A stretch of 64,000 nucleotides of DNA from an uncultured Bacteroidales bacterium (GCA_947074145.1 CAMTOJ010000001.1:124001-188000); one strand, 5' to 3'. Positions 30,791 to 39,616 are shown, numbered from the stretch's first letter. Made by a program: numbers and translations. Notes: generated by a model from the sequence alone, not told the origin.

Positions 30791-33700
30791 ATGCAGAGTA
30801 AGGATCTAACATCGTATATAACCTCTAAGCCGAGATTTTCTGCTCTTAGAAATCTTATAAAGAACAATGAAAAATCTATTTTTTTATCTGGATTAAGAGG
30901 CTCAGCAGCGGCGGCATTCATAGCACCGCTAGTGAAGACAAACAACAAAGACCAATTTATTTTTATACTTAATGATCAGGAGGATGCAGGGTATTTTTTT
31001 CATGATCTGACTCAAATTTCAGGCTCCGAAAATATTTTATTTTTTCCTTCAGCTTATAAAAGAGCTATAAAATATGGTCAGATTGATGGGGCTTCTGAAA
31101 TACTTAGAACTGAAGTATTAAGTAGACTAAAGCAAGACAAGCCGATCATGATAGTGACATATCCTGAGGCATTAGCTGAAAAGGTAGTAACTCAAAAAAT
31201 TCTTGATGAGAAGACTTTAAAGATATCTACTGGTGAAAAAATTGATCCTAAATTTGTATCAGAGGTTCTTTATGACTTTGGATTTCAGAAAGTCGATTAT
31301 GTATATGAACCCGGACAATACGCACAAAGAGGTTCGATTATAGATGTTTACTCTTTTTCAAATGATCTGCCCTATAGAATTGATTTTTTTGGCAATGAAG
31401 TTGATTCAATAAGAATATTTGAGATAGATTCCCAATTATCAAAAGAGAAACTAACAGAGATATTTATCATTCCTAATCTACAATCAAACGAAGCAACAGG
31501 TGTATCACTTTTGGAATTTATTTCATCCGACACATTTTTAGGATTTAAAGATCTTGCATGGGTAAGCGAAAGAATCTCGTCTATTGTTAATGAAGAGATT
31601 TCCGAACAATTGCTTATTTCAGAAGAGGGTGATCTGACCATAAAAACAAAACTTGTTGATGATGCTAAATTTAAGAGAGATCTTATATCTTTCAAACGCA
31701 TAGAGTTCGGAGCTAAAACTTATTCCAACTCTCCTTCTGTTATAGAGTTTCACACCACTCTCCAACCCATTTATCACAAAAACTTTGATCTCGTTGCTCA
31801 GTCATTCAAAGAATATATATCAAAAGGGTACATTATATATATATTAAGTGATAATGAAAAACAGACTGACAGAATAAAAGCCATATTTGATGATCGCGGA
31901 GATGATATATCCTTCACACCTGTGATTAAGACACTTCATGAGGGTTTTGTTGACGATGATATGAAGTGTTGTTATTTTACAGATCATCAGATATTCGACC
32001 GTTTTCATAAATATAATCTAAAAAGCGAACGTGCAAGAACGGGGAAACTTGCAATTTCCCTTAAAGAACTAAACCAATTTGAAATAGGCGACTATATAGT
32101 GCATGTGGATCATGGAGTAGCTAAATTCGGAGGATTGGTTAGAATGCCTGTTAATGGCAAAACACAGGAAGTGATAAAACTAATTTATCTCAATGATGAC
32201 ATACTTTTTGTAAATATTCATTCCCTTCATAAACTTGCTAAATATAGAGCAAAAGAGGGGCACGCACCAAAAATAAATAAACTCGGTTCGGGTGCATGGG
32301 AAAAGATGAAAGATAAGACCAAGAGCAAAATGAAGGATATAGCCAGGGATCTTATCAAACTATATGCAAAAAGAAAAGATGAAAAAGGATTCTCTTTCTC
32401 AGCAGATTCTTTCCTCCAACAGGAATTAGAGGCTTCTTTCATATATGAAGATACGCCGGACCAATACACCTCAACTATTGAGGTAAAAAAAGATATGGAG
32501 AGTGAAAAACCTATGGATCGACTAATCTGTGGAGACGTAGGATTCGGGAAAACAGAAATTGCAATCAGAGCAGCATTTAAAGCAGTATGCGATGGAAAAC
32601 AAGTTGCAATACTTGTACCAACCACTGTTCTAGCATTTCAACATTATAAGACATTTAAAGAGCGATTAAAAGAATTTCCCGTTGAAATTGATTATCTGAC
32701 AAGAGCAAAAAAAGCATCAGATGTCAAGAAATTAATACAAAGTTTGGCAAACGGAAAGCCTGATATTATAATTGGCACTCATAAATTAATAGGTAAAGAT
32801 ATAGTCTTTAAAGATCTGGGACTTCTCATTATTGATGAGGAACAGAAGTTTGGGGTTGCCGTAAAAGAGAAGTTAAAACAGATAAAAACCAATGTCGATA
32901 CACTTACTATGACAGCAACTCCGATACCTCGAACACTTCAATTTTCACTAATGGGTGCAAGAGACTTATCGGTAATTTCCACACCTCCTCCAAATAGATT
33001 CCCCATTCAAACAGAAATTCACCGTTTTGATGATGAAATAATTAAAGAGGCGATAAATTTCGAAATGAGTAGAAACGGACAGGTATTTTTTATAAATAAT
33101 CGAGTTCAGAGTCTACCGGAACTTAAAGAGAAGATTTTAAAACTAGTCCCTGATGCCAGGGTTGCTATTGGGCATGGTCAGATGGATCCCCAAACGCTCG
33201 AAAAACATATTATAGATTTTAGCAATCAGGAATATGATGTATTACTCTCAACAACTATTGTGGAGTCTGGCATTGACATACCCAATGCCAATACTATGAT
33301 TATCAATAATGCTCAGAATTTCGGATTAAGCGAACTTCATCAACTAAGAGGACGAGTGGGCCGAAGTAATAAAAAAGCATTCTGCTATCTTCTCTCACCT
33401 CCCCTTCACTCTCTTAGTACTGAATCAAGAAGAAGACTGCAAGCAATTGAAAATTTTTCAGAACTTGGTAGTGGAATTCACATTGCCATGCAGGACCTTG
33501 ACATCAGAGGCGCAGGGAACCTTCTTGGTGGCGAACAAAGTGGATTTATAGCAGATCTGGGTTATGAAACATATCAGAAAATTCTCAAAGAGGCAATTGA
33601 AGAACTTAAGGATGAGGAATTTTCCGACTTATATTCTGATAATGATGATATACGCGGAAATAGCAAATGGGTGAATGAATGCATTGTCGAGTCTGATATG

Positions 33701-34135
33701 GAATTGCTTTTTGCAAATGATTATATTCCTTCTCCAGCTGAAAGAATAACATTATATAAAGAGCTTGATTCTATTGACAAAGAAACTGAGCTTTCGCTTT
33801 TTATTGAAAAAATTAAAGATAGATTCGGAGCATTGCCCCACGAAAGTATTGAACTTATAAGAATCGTAAGTCTTCGTATAATTGCAAAACTACTTGGAGT
33901 TGAAAAAGTGGTATTGAAGAATGATAAATTATTCCTTTATTTCTTATCAGGTAATAATGAAAGCTATTATCAATCAGAAGAATTCGGAGCTCTATTATCC
34001 TATCTTCAAAATCATCCTCGAGAAACTCAAATAAAAGAGAATAAGAATAAAAGGTATTTATTAATAGAAAAGGTTTATACCGTTGAAAAAGCTGTTGAGA
34101 TAATCTCACAAATTAGAGATTATTTAAACAAATAA
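30791..34135 (+). CDS. mfd: Transcription-repair coupling factor Mfd
   Basis: A 1114-residue DNA translocase that removes stalled RNA polymerase from lesions and recruits UvrA. An UvrB-like N-terminal region is followed by a CarD-like RNA-polymerase-interaction domain (about 420-490, FEIGDYIVHVDHGVAKF). The RecG-like helicase motor follows, with Walker A CGDVGFGKTEIA near residue 580-590 and the DEEQ box (LLIIDEEQKFG) near 682. A TRCF C-terminal domain completes it. It is slightly shorter than E. coli Mfd, as is usual for the phylum. A 14-base hairpin without a T-run lies just after it and before the first kinase-like gene. Confidence 0.97.
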   Translation: MQSKDLTSYITSKPRFSALRNLIKNNEKSIFLSGLRGSAAAAFIAPLVKTNNKDQFIFILNDQEDAGYFFHDLTQISGSENILFFPSAYKRAIKYGQIDGASEILRTEVLSRLKQDKPIMIVTYPEALAEKVVTQKILDEKTLKISTGEKIDPKFVSEVLYDFGFQKVDYVYEPGQYAQRGSIIDVYSFSNDLPYRIDFFGNEVDSIRIFEIDSQLSKEKLTEIFIIPNLQSNEATGVSLLEFISSDTFLGFKDLAWVSERISSIVNEEISEQLLISEEGDLTIKTKLVDDAKFKRDLISFKRIEFGAKTYSNSPSVIEFHTTLQPIYHKNFDLVAQSFKEYISKGYIIYILSDNEKQTDRIKAIFDDRGDDISFTPVIKTLHEGFVDDDMKCCYFTDHQIFDRFHKYNLKSERARTGKLAISLKELNQFEIGDYIVHVDHGVAKFGGLVRMPVNGKTQEVIKLIYLNDDILFVNIHSLHKLAKYRAKEGHAPKINKLGSGAWEKMKDKTKSKMKDIARDLIKLYAKRKDEKGFSFSADSFLQQELEASFIYEDTPDQYTSTIEVKKDMESEKPMDRLICGDVGFGKTEIAIRAAFKAVCDGKQVAILVPTTVLAFQHYKTFKERLKEFPVEIDYLTRAKKASDVKKLIQSLANGKPDIIIGTHKLIGKDIVFKDLGLLIIDEEQKFGVAVKEKLKQIKTNVDTLTMTATPIPRTLQFSLMGARDLSVISTPPPNRFPIQTEIHRFDDEIIKEAINFEMSRNGQVFFINNRVQSLPELKEKILKLVPDARVAIGHGQMDPQTLEKHIIDFSNQEYDVLLSTTIVESGIDIPNANTMIINNAQNFGLSELHQLRGRVGRSNKKAFCYLLSPPLHSLSTESRRRLQAIENFSELGSGIHIAMQDLDIRGAGNLLGGEQSGFIADLGYETYQKILKEAIEELKDEEFSDLYSDNDDIRGNSKWVNECIVESDMELLFANDYIPSPAERITLYKELDSIDKETELSLFIEKIKDRFGALPHESIELIRIVSLRIIAKLLGVEKVVLKNDKLFLYFLSGNNESYYQSEEFGALLSYLQNHPRETQIKENKNKRYLLIEKVYTVEKAVEIISQIRDYLNK

Positions 34136-34243: not shown

Positions 34244-36460
34244 ATGCCAAATCTTTATAAATCAATAGACGCAAACCTACTTCCTGTTTTAGATTCCTTA
34301 ATCGGTGGAAGAAGCGATATTTTATTTGTGTTTGACATAATCAGAAATGATACCATAATAAACGTAATATGTAAAAACACACAAACAGTTATCTCTTCTG
34401 CATTGTCAGAAGAGATTGGATATTATTTGACTGAAGAGATCAATTTATTTGAATCTGGAAATTTTTCTGATATATATCTTTTATTGTCAGGATTAAATAA
34501 GTCTATTGTTCTATATAAATATTTCTCAGATGGTTATAACAAAATAATCATATCTTTATCAGGTTCGAAGCTTTCTGATTCAAAAGAGATAATTGTAATC
34601 ATTAAACCTATTGAAGAAGAAATTTATTTAGATTTTAAGAATTTTGCCAATAATCTTGAATCAAACTTTTGTCCAGTTTTTGTAAAAAATTATACAGACA
34701 ATACCCTTGATTATTTAAACAGCAAAGGTTATGAGTTTCTAAAAGAAAATAATTTATTTTTTACATCAGATAAATATTCCGAGTTAACACAGTCACCTAT
34801 CGGAATACCCTTTATTTTCAGTTTATTTGACACCGACGGAAAGGAACGATTTTATCAATTCAAAAAGATTGTAGAAATTAATTTCGATGGCTCACAAATA
34901 TTGATTGAATATCTAAATGATATAACTCTTATCATTGATTTACAAAAAAGATATCTTCATAGTTATGAATTGATTAATCAATTTTCCGAACAGTTTGATC
35001 TGATTCCCTGGCATTTGGATTTGGGTAATAAAGAACTTATAATCGAATTTGATAAGATAAATATACACAATGATTTCAATTCAGACTTTATACGTAAAAA
35101 GGTCCGATTTAAAGATTTAAAAGATCTATTATATCCTGATGATTTTCAGATAATAAACAAGATAAAAAAAGAGAGTTACAAGACAAATTATCTTTCTTTC
35201 AGAAATAATATAAGATTATTTTTAAAAGAAGAAAAGGCTATCCCATTTCAGCTTACAGGGATTGTTGATCTTAGAAGTAAAACTACTCCGTTGGTATTCG
35301 GCTACATTAAGAATCTAAAAAAAATCGAGGTTCATAATGATGACATTAGACGATTGAATAAAGAAGCTGAATCACTACATGCTTTTCAAACAGCATTTCT
35401 TAAGATAATACATCATGAATTAAGGGCTCCTGTGAATAAATTAATAGGCTATACCGAGACATTAATCCACAAGACTAATGCAGTTGAAACAGACAAAATG
35501 GCTTATTTTAAAAAGATAAAATCTTATACCAAAAAGCTTCTTTCCATTCTTGACAGCTCTCTCGAATATTCTTATACAGAACCCGAGATTGGATCCGAGG
35601 ATAAAAATGAGACGATTTATTTGAGCAAATTCCTTAATATTGTAACGGATGTTGTAAAATCAAAAAATAATAAGATTAAAATTCAGACCGATTACGATAG
35701 GGAAATAATTATATCTACCTATAAAATTGAGAAACTTGCCGTAGCAATCTCTTGTCTTGTTTTTTGCTATCATGAATCAAATCCAGGAAAGATACCTTTT
35801 GTCTTTGCCAAGGTTATAGATGACAAACTTCAATTTATTATAGGAAGCAACTATGATATAGATCCTGAATCTCTTGAAATGGAATCAATAACATATCTTC
35901 AGTTTTTGGATAGAAATCTAACAAATAAAAGTCTCGAATTGGATATGGATATTGCCATCTCATTTTCATTACTTGTAAATGCCAATATATCTTTATTTAG
36001 CGATAATGTGGGGAATAATATTTTCCAGATTGAAACATCTATTTCAAAATTGGACAGCAGTAATGATCTGAGTTATAAAATGATTGAAAAGTCAAATTCC
36101 ACAATTTCTGAAAATATAATTTTTTATGAAAATGAAAATATATTTTCTTCTATTATTTACGAAACACTAAATCATAGATATAAAATAAATTATGTGACCA
36201 GATATTCTAATATTTTCAAATATTTATCAAATAATTCCTCTTTAATATTTTCAGTTAAAAACATTGATAATGAGTTAATTCTTATCCTTTCTACAATTAT
36301 AAGAAAAAGTGCTGACACAAAAATATTAGTGATATGTCTTAATGAAAACTTGCATGATCTCAACCTATTATATAATGAAGATTTACTTAAAGATGTAGAA
36401 ATCCTCTTTCCACCTTTCAATATAGAAATCATCCTTGATTTTCTGACCGGTAATAATTGA
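34244..36460 (+). CDS. Degenerate histidine-kinase-like protein (H-box kept, ATP site and receiver lost)
   Basis: A 738-residue soluble protein with no membrane segment. The N-terminal part holds PAS-like regions (about 1-120 and 140-250, the latter containing YQFKKIVEINFDG). A HisKA dimerisation domain follows, with the H-box IIHHELRAPVNKL (His391 at the phospho-acceptor position). The C-terminal kinase domain (about 430-610) is recognisable only by position: the N-box and the G1 (DxG) and G2 glycine motifs are missing. The last 120 residues look like a receiver domain whose aspartate position is replaced (SLIFSVKN). It lies 26 bases before an intact kinase paralog and is probably its cotranscribed partner. 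It could be a pseudokinase scaffold or a phosphotransfer acceptor. Transcription may continue from mfd. Confidence 0.7.
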   Translation: MPNLYKSIDANLLPVLDSLIGGRSDILFVFDIIRNDTIINVICKNTQTVISSALSEEIGYYLTEEINLFESGNFSDIYLLLSGLNKSIVLYKYFSDGYNKIIISLSGSKLSDSKEIIVIIKPIEEEIYLDFKNFANNLESNFCPVFVKNYTDNTLDYLNSKGYEFLKENNLFFTSDKYSELTQSPIGIPFIFSLFDTDGKERFYQFKKIVEINFDGSQILIEYLNDITLIIDLQKRYLHSYELINQFSEQFDLIPWHLDLGNKELIIEFDKINIHNDFNSDFIRKKVRFKDLKDLLYPDDFQIINKIKKESYKTNYLSFRNNIRLFLKEEKAIPFQLTGIVDLRSKTTPLVFGYIKNLKKIEVHNDDIRRLNKEAESLHAFQTAFLKIIHHELRAPVNKLIGYTETLIHKTNAVETDKMAYFKKIKSYTKKLLSILDSSLEYSYTEPEIGSEDKNETIYLSKFLNIVTDVVKSKNNKIKIQTDYDREIIISTYKIEKLAVAISCLVFCYHESNPGKIPFVFAKVIDDKLQFIIGSNYDIDPESLEMESITYLQFLDRNLTNKSLELDMDIAISFSLLVNANISLFSDNVGNNIFQIETSISKLDSSNDLSYKMIEKSNSTISENIIFYENENIFSSIIYETLNHRYKINYVTRYSNIFKYLSNNSSLIFSVKNIDNELILILSTIIRKSADTKILVICLNENLHDLNLLYNEDLLKDVEILFPPFNIEIILDFLTGNN

Positions 36461-36486
36461 GTAGAACATAAGAATATTATTTTATA

Positions 36487-38433
36487 ATGAAGATCCAAAA
36501 CAACAGTTTAGAAAATATAAAGCAATTAAATTATTCGTTATTAAAAAATGAATCGGTGATTCTTGTCTATTCTAGTCTAAACGGTTTATTTTATTGTACC
36601 GAACAGTTTTTTCAGTTATTTAAAGAGGTCTCTTTAGATGAAGATTTTTCTTATGAGGATTTAATTGATATTTTGCCTATTAAACATCAAAAAATACTTT
36701 TTGAAAAAATTGATGATTTCCGAAAAAATGGCACTATGTTGTGTCAACTTGATACTTTTATTTATGAAAATAATTGTAAAGTAACAATTGAACTGAAAGT
36801 TACCAACAGTGAAGACTATTTTTTTCTTTATTTCAAAAAAAGACTTGAAATTACTCCTACTTCATCCTTGTCAATATTAACTGATAATCTTTGCATTAAA
36901 CAAACAGTCGCATATAAAAATATTGTAACTAAACTTGAATATATATACTATAGAAGTCTTTCAAAAATATATCAGTTTGGCAATTATTACGGATTTAAAG
37001 TTTGGCATTATAATATCAATGAAAAGAAGATTATTTTACCAAATGGAGTAATAAATAATTTTAAATTTAATCACAATCAAACCAGACGTTTTTTATTTAA
37101 AAATATAAGCGAATGCGATTTCAAAATCATAGATAAATGGTTAGAAAAGGCTATCGAAGAGAATAGATTTAATTATTTGTTTTTAAAGACAGAGAATGAT
37201 AAACAGTTAGCAAATAATTGGAATCATAATTACCTTTATTTCACTCCTGGATCTGATATAGATAGTGCGAACTTGCTTTGTATTACAAAGGAGATTGATG
37301 AAATAAACAATAATAAATATGAACTTGAGAAGATTATAAAACATATAAAATATTCGGAATCAGTAAAGACTCACTTTCTTACTCACTTGAGTCATGAATT
37401 ACGTACCCCTCTCAATATAATTACTGGATTTTCTGAAATTATGTTGAATGATAAAAATAATTATAGCATAGAATATAATCAGGCAATCGCTATTGCCAAT
37501 AAATCTTTATTATCGCAGATAAATTCAATTTCCGATTATATTTCGATAGTAACCAATGATTATAAAGTTGCACCACAAAATGTTTATCTCTGGTCTTTTA
37601 TAAATGATCTTAAAAATGAATATGAAGAAAAAAACAATCATTTTATAAGAATAATGTTTGTCAATAATAAAGATAATCTGGTTTTATTGACCGATAAATA
37701 TTTATTGAAAATAGCAATCAATAAGCTGATTGATAATTCAGTTAACAATACTACTTCAGGCTATATTATTATTGAATATATAGAAACAGATAATGATATA
37801 GATATAATAGTGACTGATTCTGGCACCGGAATAAAGGATAATGATATAAATCGTGTCGTTTTGCCTTTTGAAAAAGCAGATGAATTTTCTGAAGGCGTAG
37901 GACTTGGATTGACAATAGTTAAATCAATAGCTCAGAAACTTGGAGCGGAAATAAGGATAACTTCTGAAATTGGTGTAGGAACAAGTATTCATTTTACGAT
38001 TAATACTCAATCTGATTTTATACCATATATTTCAACTTATGATAATGACAAAGCATTGTCGAATCTTGGGAAAGTAAAGATTATATATATATTCTGCAGC
38101 GATAACAATTATTCAACTTTTTCGCTTAAAAATATTTTCCCTGATTATATATTCAGATTATTTACTGTTGAGAATGAAATGATAGATGCTCTTGATGAAG
38201 AAAATCCAAGCATGTTTATTGTTGATGTTGATGATGAAAAAAGAAAAAATCATGTAGTTGAAAATATAATTAAATTTATATGTCCCAATAAAACTATTAT
38301 AATTTGCGAATCTGAGCATGTTAGATCATTAATCGATACTGATGAACGTGATATTTATTTGAACAAACCGGTATCAATTATAAAAATAAGAGAACATATT
38401 ATATCATCTCTTCATTATAATGTATACGAATAA
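36487..38433 (+). CDS. Soluble hybrid histidine kinase with C-terminal receiver-like domain
   Basis: A 648-residue cytoplasmic sensor kinase. A PAS-like region at about 1-120 and a second sensory region at about 130-280 precede HisKA, with the H-box FLTHLSHELRTPLN (His303). The ATPase domain is complete: N-box NKLIDNSVNN near 412-421, G1 DSGTGI near 443, G2 GVGLGL near 470. A diverged receiver-like domain follows (about 520-648), in which Asp580 (FIVDVDDE) and a later Lys (LNKPV) sit at the phosphoacceptor and switch-lysine positions, while the N-terminal acidic pair is reduced (CSDNN). No DNA-binding response regulator is encoded nearby, so the output is unknown. It is paired with the degenerate paralog upstream and ended by a hairpin terminator. 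Confidence 0.85.
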   Translation: MKIQNNSLENIKQLNYSLLKNESVILVYSSLNGLFYCTEQFFQLFKEVSLDEDFSYEDLIDILPIKHQKILFEKIDDFRKNGTMLCQLDTFIYENNCKVTIELKVTNSEDYFFLYFKKRLEITPTSSLSILTDNLCIKQTVAYKNIVTKLEYIYYRSLSKIYQFGNYYGFKVWHYNINEKKIILPNGVINNFKFNHNQTRRFLFKNISECDFKIIDKWLEKAIEENRFNYLFLKTENDKQLANNWNHNYLYFTPGSDIDSANLLCITKEIDEINNNKYELEKIIKHIKYSESVKTHFLTHLSHELRTPLNIITGFSEIMLNDKNNYSIEYNQAIAIANKSLLSQINSISDYISIVTNDYKVAPQNVYLWSFINDLKNEYEEKNNHFIRIMFVNNKDNLVLLTDKYLLKIAINKLIDNSVNNTTSGYIIIEYIETDNDIDIIVTDSGTGIKDNDINRVVLPFEKADEFSEGVGLGLTIVKSIAQKLGAEIRITSEIGVGTSIHFTINTQSDFIPYISTYDNDKALSNLGKVKIIYIFCSDNNYSTFSLKNIFPDYIFRLFTVENEMIDALDEENPSMFIVDVDDEKRKNHVVENIIKFICPNKTIIICESEHVRSLIDTDERDIYLNKPVSIIKIREHIISSLHYNVYE

Positions 38434-38491
38434 AATAAAAAATTTAACTATTAGATTATTATAATCTTTTAATCAAATAATTTAAACATAG

Positions 38492-38538
38492 ATAACCCTG
38501 ACATGTTCTATTTATAAGAATATGTCAGGGTTATTTTA
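38492..38538 (+). terminator. Hairpin terminator after the kinase pair
   Basis: ATAACCCTGACAT (38492-38504) pairs perfectly with ATGTCAGGGTTAT (38522-38534), followed by TTTATT. Confidence 0.82.
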
Positions 38539-38606
38539 TTAATTATTATACAATTAACGCTGAGATATTTACCTTAGTTATTTATGAAAATTAATACTCA
38601 GAATTG

Positions 38607-38948
38607 ATGGTAAAAGATTTATCAGTTAGTGATTTCGAATCGATAACAAACAATATTAAACTCCCCAAATATGATCCATCAAAAAAAAAGATGATTATTG
38701 AGTTTTATATTTCCACTTGCCCTCATTGTATATCCATGGAACCTATATTTTTGAAATTGTCGGAAGTACATAAGGATATATTTTTTTATAAAACCGAAAT
38801 ATCAGACAAGCATGAATTAGCCCATAGATTTAATATTGAAGCAACTCCTACTTTTATTTTTTTCCCTCAAAATAACGAACCTGTGAAATTATTGGGTGAG
38901 ATTGGAAAGGATGAGTTTGATAATAAAATCAAGGAGATTTTTAGATAG
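38607..38948 (+). CDS. Thioredoxin-like protein with a CPHC active site
   Basis: A thioredoxin-fold protein of 113 residues. The redox motif is CPHC (Cys38-Cys41), the dithiol sequence of DsbA-type proteins, rather than the CGPC of classical thioredoxin. The conserved cis-proline is in EATPTFIFF. There is no signal peptide, so it should act in the cytoplasm. I chose the ATG at 38607; a TTG directly before it would add one residue. The next gene, 44 bases downstream, encodes an exported protein and may be cotranscribed. The target is unknown. Confidence 0.82.
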   Translation: MVKDLSVSDFESITNNIKLPKYDPSKKKMIIEFYISTCPHCISMEPIFLKLSEVHKDIFFYKTEISDKHELAHRFNIEATPTFIFFPQNNEPVKLLGEIGKDEFDNKIKEIFR

Positions 38949-38992: not shown

Positions 38993-39616
38993 ATGAAAAA
39001 TTTTAAACTCATAATTATTTCAGGTATAATATTTTTTTTGAGCAATATTATATCGCAAGTTAATGCTAAAGAAAATGATTCTGATCATGAAAGATCAAGA
39101 ACTTTCGAATTGGTATATAAAGCTGTAATTAATGGTGATGAAATAAATAAAGGTGAACTATTGAGTGTCTCGGAAGTGGACACAAAGATTGTTAATGATG
39201 ATATTCTGGATTACATTAATTCTTTATTATTTGTTGAAAACACCAATCAAATAGAATCAGTGATTGCCGTCAATGATAGCATTAGTTTCAAAACTTCAAC
39301 TGAAGGTCTTATTAATAATATTTATATTTATTATCCTAATAAAAAGCTTAAGATCTCAATTAATATGTCATATGATAATATGAGTAGATTAAAACTTTGC
39401 ACAATTAGAGATGTCGAAGCAAATATTGTAGATGCCATATCTTATACATATGATAATTATGGTAGATTAACAATTAAAATATGTAATCGCACAGGAGGAG
39501 ATATGTATCAGGAAAGATATGCTTATAAAGATGATAACATATGGTATGTAAAAGTTTTGTTCAAAGAATACCATCCTCTATTGTATTTCGAACGCAAAAC
39601 ATATATTGACGATTAA
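38993..39616 (+). CDS. Hypothetical exported protein (207 residues)
   Basis: Not recognised. A Sec signal peptide covers about residues 1-25 (hydrophobic core LIIISGIIFFLSNII, cleavage after VNA). The mature part is acidic and beta-rich, with a short YTYDNYGRLTI segment that resembles a YD-type strand repeat and only two cysteines. It follows the CPHC thioredoxin-like gene by 44 bases. A weak resemblance to small Bacteroidetes secreted families such as DUF3836 is possible but unproven. Confidence 0.65.
   Translation: MKNFKLIIISGIIFFLSNIISQVNAKENDSDHERSRTFELVYKAVINGDEINKGELLSVSEVDTKIVNDDILDYINSLLFVENTNQIESVIAVNDSISFKTSTEGLINNIYIYYPNKKLKISINMSYDNMSRLKLCTIRDVEANIVDAISYTYDNYGRLTIKICNRTGGDMYQERYAYKDDNIWYVKVLFKEYHPLLYFERKTYIDD

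Follow-up and report, generated by a model that had tools for sequence, protein, structure and literature searches.

ChpT of Caulobacter has a DHp domain with a live histidine and a Bergerat-like domain that is unable to bind ATP, and it acts as a phosphotransferase (PMC3433190). Similarly degenerated kinases with this function are Spo0B and PhyT, the latter belonging to the PhyT/PhyP type of Sphingomonas, in which the ATPase domain has degenerated and the phosphorylatable histidine has been kept (PMC5898713). In enterobacteria, RcsD, a protein with a pseudo-histidine kinase domain, is the phosphotransferase for the hybrid kinase RcsC (PMC3762810). RetS of Pseudomonas, a hybrid-type kinase whose HATPase domain has no G boxes, acts on a second kinase, GacS (PMC5992135), and DivL of Caulobacter is described as a pseudo-histidine kinase that steers the active hybrid kinase CckA (PMC9430884).

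Here we describe two adjacent genes, K1 and K2, of an uncultured Bacteroidales bacterium. They lie in a window of 64,000 nucleotides, the whole stretch of DNA that was analysed (GCA_947074145.1 CAMTOJ010000001.1:124001-188000), and coordinates are counted from its first letter. K1, the putative dead member of the pair, resembles each of the proteins above in part. Like ChpT, it combines a live histidine with a domain apparently unable to bind ATP, but ChpT has nothing beyond its helical hairpin and Bergerat-like domain, with no PAS or receiver-like regions, whereas K1 is a much larger protein whose part in transfer is putative. PhyP is membrane-anchored, carries HRxxN and is encoded at the phyR locus, while K1 is predicted to be soluble, carries HHELRAP and has no linked regulator. 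K1 shares with RetS an ATPase-like region devoid of G boxes; RetS, however, keeps the HExxT motif and uses its receiver aspartate, and K1 has neither. Unlike K1 and K2, retS and gacS are not known to be adjacent genes. RcsD transfers phosphate through an HPt domain, which K1 does not have. DivL has no phospho-acceptor histidine; in K1 the histidine (His391) is kept in both known orthologues and the ATP site has been lost instead. A literature search of partial coverage revealed no comparable Bacteroidota pair.

The locus

Both open reading frames were found where the original prediction had placed them, on the same strand and separated by 26 bases (Table 1). Upstream of the pair lies mfd (30791-34135) and downstream a thioredoxin-like gene (38604-38948). 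Since a terminator-like hairpin follows K2, and the related genome G002 has an equivalent one after its own K2, the two genes appear to form one unit that ends ahead of the thioredoxin-like gene. A promoter scan returned 46 sites against 43 expected, which is no informative excess. As had been predicted, both proteins are probably soluble: no strong transmembrane stretch was present in either of them, the maximum 19-residue Kyte-Doolittle mean being 1.56, in K1.

The G+C content of K1 (27%) and K2 (26%) is below that of the window (32%) and of mfd (34%), which may reflect fast evolution or acquisition. Further downstream (38993-39616) a secreted-looking protein of 207 aa is encoded, with 79% identity in G002 and more distant homologues in G001 and G004; in G001 its gene adjoins mutA, and mfd is found on another contig.

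Table 1. Features of the K1-K2 locus and of a second pair in the same genome
Feature	Position	Strand	Remarks
K1	34244..36460	+	ORF, 738 aa; predicted soluble pseudo-histidine kinase
K1 domain order			PAS-like N-terminal region, PAS, DHp with live His, ATP-dead CA-like domain, receiver-like tail
K1 PAS domain	34976..35329	+	aa 245-362
K1 DHp/HisKA	35378..35584	+	aa 379-447; Pfam PF00512, hhalign 98.5%
K1 His391, presumed phospho-acceptor	35414..35416	+	followed by Glu392; Ala395 at phosphatase Thr/Asn position
K1 ATP-dead CA-like domain	35606..36049	+	aa 455-602; motifs replaced, Bergerat-type order in model
K1 former G2 box, KSLELDMDIAI	35927..35959	+	aa 562-572; acidic in place of glycine; identical in G002
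K1 receiver-like tail without Asp or Lys	36110..36457	+	aa 623-738; model only, no profile match
K2	36487..38433	+	ORF, 648 aa; predicted soluble hybrid histidine kinase
K2 PAS domain	36922..37296	+	aa 146-270; resembles K1 PAS
K2 DHp	37357..37554	+	aa 291-356; His303 at 37393-37395
K2 CA/ATPase domain	37678..38010	+	aa 398-508; G1 and G2 intact, N box partly altered
K2 degenerate receiver	38074..38430	+	aa 530-648; Asp580 at 38224-38226, Lys627 at 38365-38367
Intrinsic-terminator-like hairpin 3' of K2	38490..38536	+	strong
Second tandem active/dead pair	C35 2061-5204, outside window		395-aa membrane histidine kinase, then 650-aa TPR-membrane-HisKA protein

K1 has lost the ATP motifs

In K1, Pfam recognised HisKA alone (residues 382-444, E 8.5e-7), with the HHELRAP motif present; HATPase_c was detected neither by Pfam, even at E 1, nor in a whole-genome search with PF02518. 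The motifs were compared in an alignment of K1 with K2 and 16 ordinary kinases. In the N box K494 and F507 have taken the place of the near-invariant Asp and Asn, G534, N536 and D538 stand for the D-x-G-x-G of G1, and S563, E565 and D567 are found at the three glycine positions of G2. Where the HExxT phosphatase motif would be, K1 has HELRA (HELKA in G002). The original prediction was right that K1 keeps HHELRAP, has no recognisable N, G1 or G2 boxes and ends in a receiver-like tail without the aspartate. By sequence and model K1 is thus a pseudo-histidine kinase in the broad sense of a kinase core that has lost at least one normal function (ATP binding, phosphatase or autophosphorylation), and it is predicted to be ATP-incompetent.

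The shared order of PAS-like, HisKA, ATPase and receiver domains, also claimed for both proteins, held in K1 at the level of sequence for PAS and HisKA. By hhalign, the ATPase segment of K1 was not recognised as an ATPase (probability about 0.2%, compared with 99.9% for its counterpart in K2), and profile comparison likewise gave no detectable homology of the K1 tail to the receiver family, so the domain order past HisKA rests on the structural model. The AlphaFold2 model of K1, made from an alignment of 18 sequences, was poor overall (mean pLDDT 50.8); it was better in the DHp domain and most of residues 455-600 (pLDDT mostly 75-84), with low confidence in the lid region. Residues 455-600 showed the Bergerat order of strands and helices, and VIA-align superposed the CA-like part on kinase CA domains (NtrB 1r62, Z 14.5, rmsd 2.4 over 118 residues). 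Real kinases were part of the input alignment, so the fold in the model is not independent evidence for a kinase. The PAS domain gave VIA matches to the PAS/LOV kinases 4i5s and 4r3a from residue 253. According to the model, the CA-like domain has kept the ATPase-type fold with its N, G1 and G2 motifs destroyed; a normal ATP site, which would have spoken against a pseudokinase, was not seen.

The modelled DHp-CA part also fitted DivL (4q20, Z 13.4). The output domain of DivL is described as repurposed into an input sensor of regulator phosphorylation, by which this pseudokinase steers a hybrid kinase (PMC4211667), and K1 might similarly sense the phosphorylation of a regulator through its DHp/CA surface and inform K2, with the flow of information reversed. 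We consider this improbable, as the match to 4q20 is about equal to those with other kinases and hence not specific to DivL, and there is no linked response regulator on the 198-kb contig. K1 also keeps the histidine that is replaced in DivL.

K2 looks like an ATP-competent hybrid kinase

K2 was recognised by Pfam as HisKA plus HATPase_c (E 1.7e-16). The claim that it keeps all ATP motifs was borne out for N417, for G1 (D444-G446-G448, DSGTGI) and for G2 (G470-G472-G474, GVGLGL), but the N box is partly altered, with K413 where Asn is usual and N420 where Lys is usual. With HisKA, HATPase_c and these three motifs, K2 looks like an ATP-competent hybrid kinase.

Its receiver was missed by Pfam. 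The predicted pair of Asp580 and a lysine (Lys627) is present, but the domain is otherwise degenerate: one of the two acidic residues is kept (S539-D540; D-N in G002) and Cys607 stands at the usual Thr/Ser position, so that one acid and the Thr/Ser are missing from the five active-site residues. Under the definition in PMC12632262 it is a pseudo-receiver. It may still be functional despite this degeneracy.

The pair is conserved within one genus

We examined five genomes of the genus, two of which are incomplete (G003, 77%; G004, 71%). G002 has both genes, likewise ordered and flanked by mfd and thioredoxin, with identities of 47% for K1 and 55% for K2. Both are absent from G001, G003 and G004 (three of the five), the absence from G003 and G004 being weaker evidence because of their completeness. 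The genes thus occur both or neither across the five genomes, and no genome has one gene alone, a finding that would have argued against the pair. Thioredoxin and mfd have stayed near each other in G001 and G003, separated by other genes; as these genomes do not have the kinases, the neighbourhood is older than the pair, which was either inserted there or lost.

No K1 orthologue was found outside the genus in 393 genomes of the order and 395 of the phylum (partly overlapping samples). A match in G071 was rejected as an orthologue, since the protein is an ordinary kinase in which the ATP motifs are intact, and the single match to K1 in a wider collection of contigs was weak and came from a planctomycete kinase. 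Searches of IMG/VR with the K1 and K2 pairs gave no match; a search with the kinase-core alignment returned 39 generic kinases, which were used solely to deepen the alignments for structure prediction.

The original prediction had proposed checking relatives for the same pattern of loss, and G002 shows it. Its K1 keeps HHEL(R/K)AP, has lost all ATP motifs and carries the acidic former G2 box KSLELDMDIAIS, so that the G2 glycines are Ser, Glu and Asp in both orthologues. His391 and Glu392 are also kept in both, although with two K1 sequences known the conservation of His391 is a single comparison. Between the two genomes, identity of K1 is 75-81% in the DHp helices, 61% in the PAS domain and 61% in the dead CA domain, and lower in the receiver-like tail (32%) and the N-terminal region (29%). 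The dS is 1.7 or more, which is near saturation, and the dN in the dead CA domain is 0.29. The dead CA domain equals PAS in conservation, with a dN of 0.29 against a dS of 1.7; it is therefore being maintained and is not decaying, and both it and the DHp domain are under constraint.

These data bear on the simplest alternative, that K1 is a decaying kinase gene without a maintained function. All its ATP motifs and receiver residues are gone and the gene pair is missing from three related genomes, as decay would predict, but the reading frame runs uninterrupted through 738 codons, G002 preserves both the synteny and the domain boundaries, the DHp and dead CA domains are constrained and the replacements in the former G2 box are identical in both genomes. 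Decay is therefore largely refuted by conservation, and we regard it as very improbable. The pairing of a kinase with a pseudokinase is real and conserved, and in the samples searched it occurred only within one genus.

The original prediction saw in the pair a duplication in which one copy had become a regulator, scaffold or acceptor. The pair itself was borne out, K1 being a conserved pseudokinase next to an intact-looking kinase, but duplication was not established. K1 and K2 share 24% identity over PAS and DHp (E 8e-10), K1 scores about equally against generic hybrid kinases of the order, and in a tree of PAS and DHp from 58 kinases K1 and K2 were joined at a support of 78, with long branches meeting. 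An origin by duplication is plausible from these comparisons.

A second pair in the genome and the response regulators

In the whole genome we counted 49 HisKA sites and 53 HATPase_c sites, and by comparison of coordinates only K1 and C35:3962-4165 had HisKA without a HATPase partner. The latter belongs to a second tandem pair, on contig C35, in which an active-looking kinase directly precedes the dead protein. In this dead member the histidine is replaced by lysine (SKEIAEP) and the ATP motifs are lost; in its orthologues in G002 and G001, which are also preceded by a kinase, the position is Ser or Asp. The genus therefore has two tandem pairs of an active and a dead kinase; in one the dead member retains its histidine, in the other it does not.

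The absence of an output gene nearby, noted in the original prediction, extends to the entire 198-kb contig, where no PF00072 response regulator was found; the genome has about 40 receiver sites. For this reason the target regulator of K1 and K2 should be unlinked.

Possible function of K1

As far as can be judged from its residues, K1 has kept the phosphate-carrying parts (DHp, His391, Glu392) and has lost the use of ATP, the phosphatase and acceptance by the receiver. The sequence does not discriminate among the roles of regulator, scaffold and acceptor; an acceptor is favoured because His391 is kept and the phosphatase threonine is lost. We tentatively prefer the reading that K1 is a phospho-acceptor and phosphotransferase for K2 which passes phosphate to an unlinked regulator. 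K2 would autophosphorylate at His303, with possible onward transfer to Asp580 in the same protein. K1, unable to bind ATP, would offer a dimerising DHp domain with a phosphorylatable His391, which K2 would charge in trans, either by its ATP domain in a mixed dimer or from Asp580-P. K1 would then hand the phosphate to the unlinked response regulator and, with alanine in place of the phosphatase threonine, would be unable to dephosphorylate it; the timing of phosphotransfer would depend on the PAS domains of the two proteins. The anatomy of the proteins, the pattern of loss with its conservation and the joint occurrence of the genes are observed; the ATP incompetence (from sequence), the interaction of K1 with K2, the direction of phosphotransfer and the distant target are what we infer.

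In favour of the acceptor role, K1 keeps His391 and Glu392, while the other pseudokinase of the genus has drifted to Lys, Ser or Asp. The constraint on the DHp and dead CA domains, the joint presence or absence of the two genes and the terminator that closes the unit point the same way, as does the phosphotransferase function of the similarly degenerated ChpT, PhyT and Spo0B. K1 also has two features of the dimeric phosphotransferases of the ChpT/Spo0B/PhyT kind, a DHp-type domain with the histidine conserved in both orthologues and, judging from sequence and model, an ATP-binding-like domain whose ATP motifs are lost. In four HisKA kinases, changing the Thr/Asn at H+4 to Ala abolished the phosphatase and autophosphorylation remained; CrdS, the sole kinase of the four followed for phosphotransfer, was near normal after the change (PMC3510030). 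Against it, the degenerate receiver of K2 may be a poor phosphodonor, and the loss of the phosphatase threonine and the receiver aspartate would equally fit a purely allosteric partner.

Such a partner is the main rival, which we consider somewhat less likely than the acceptor role. In this case K1 would not be phosphorylated; by docking on K2 or joining it in a mixed dimer, it would inhibit or stimulate the autophosphorylation of K2, as RetS does with GacS. RetS, with its degenerate HATPase without G boxes, uses three mechanisms, one of them direct inhibition of GacS autophosphorylation (PMC5992135). As the first two require the receiver aspartate and HExxT, both absent from K1, the third alone remains. 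The PAS and DHp domains of K1 and K2 are related, and the dead CA domain is conserved as a binding surface is expected to be; however, relatedness of the DHp domains does not prove that mixed dimers form, and an allosteric partner has no need for a conserved His391-Glu392.

Another variant, which seems to us unlikely, is an obligate mixed dimer in which the ATP domain of K2 phosphorylates His391 of K1 and the dead subunit picks the target. In this reading the genus repeatedly pairs an active kinase with a dedicated dead partner gene (K1-K2 and the C35 TPR pair). If true, K1 and K2 would be a two-gene histidine kinase with the catalytic and acceptor roles split between subunits.

Significance

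Dead/active kinase arrangements are already known elsewhere, and K1-K2 is a rare new variant of them. The kinase-dead histidine kinases compared here (ChpT, PhyT, RetS, DivL, RcsD and Spo0B) all come from Proteobacteria or Bacillus. In the conserved tandem pair K1-K2 the dead member retains the phosphate-accepting residues but not those of ATP use, phosphatase or receiver, and the C35 pair, whose dead member has no histidine, provides a natural contrast within the same genome. Because the acceptor residues are kept and the other functions lost, K1-K2 offers a compact test of how a kinase may change into a phosphotransferase or regulator.
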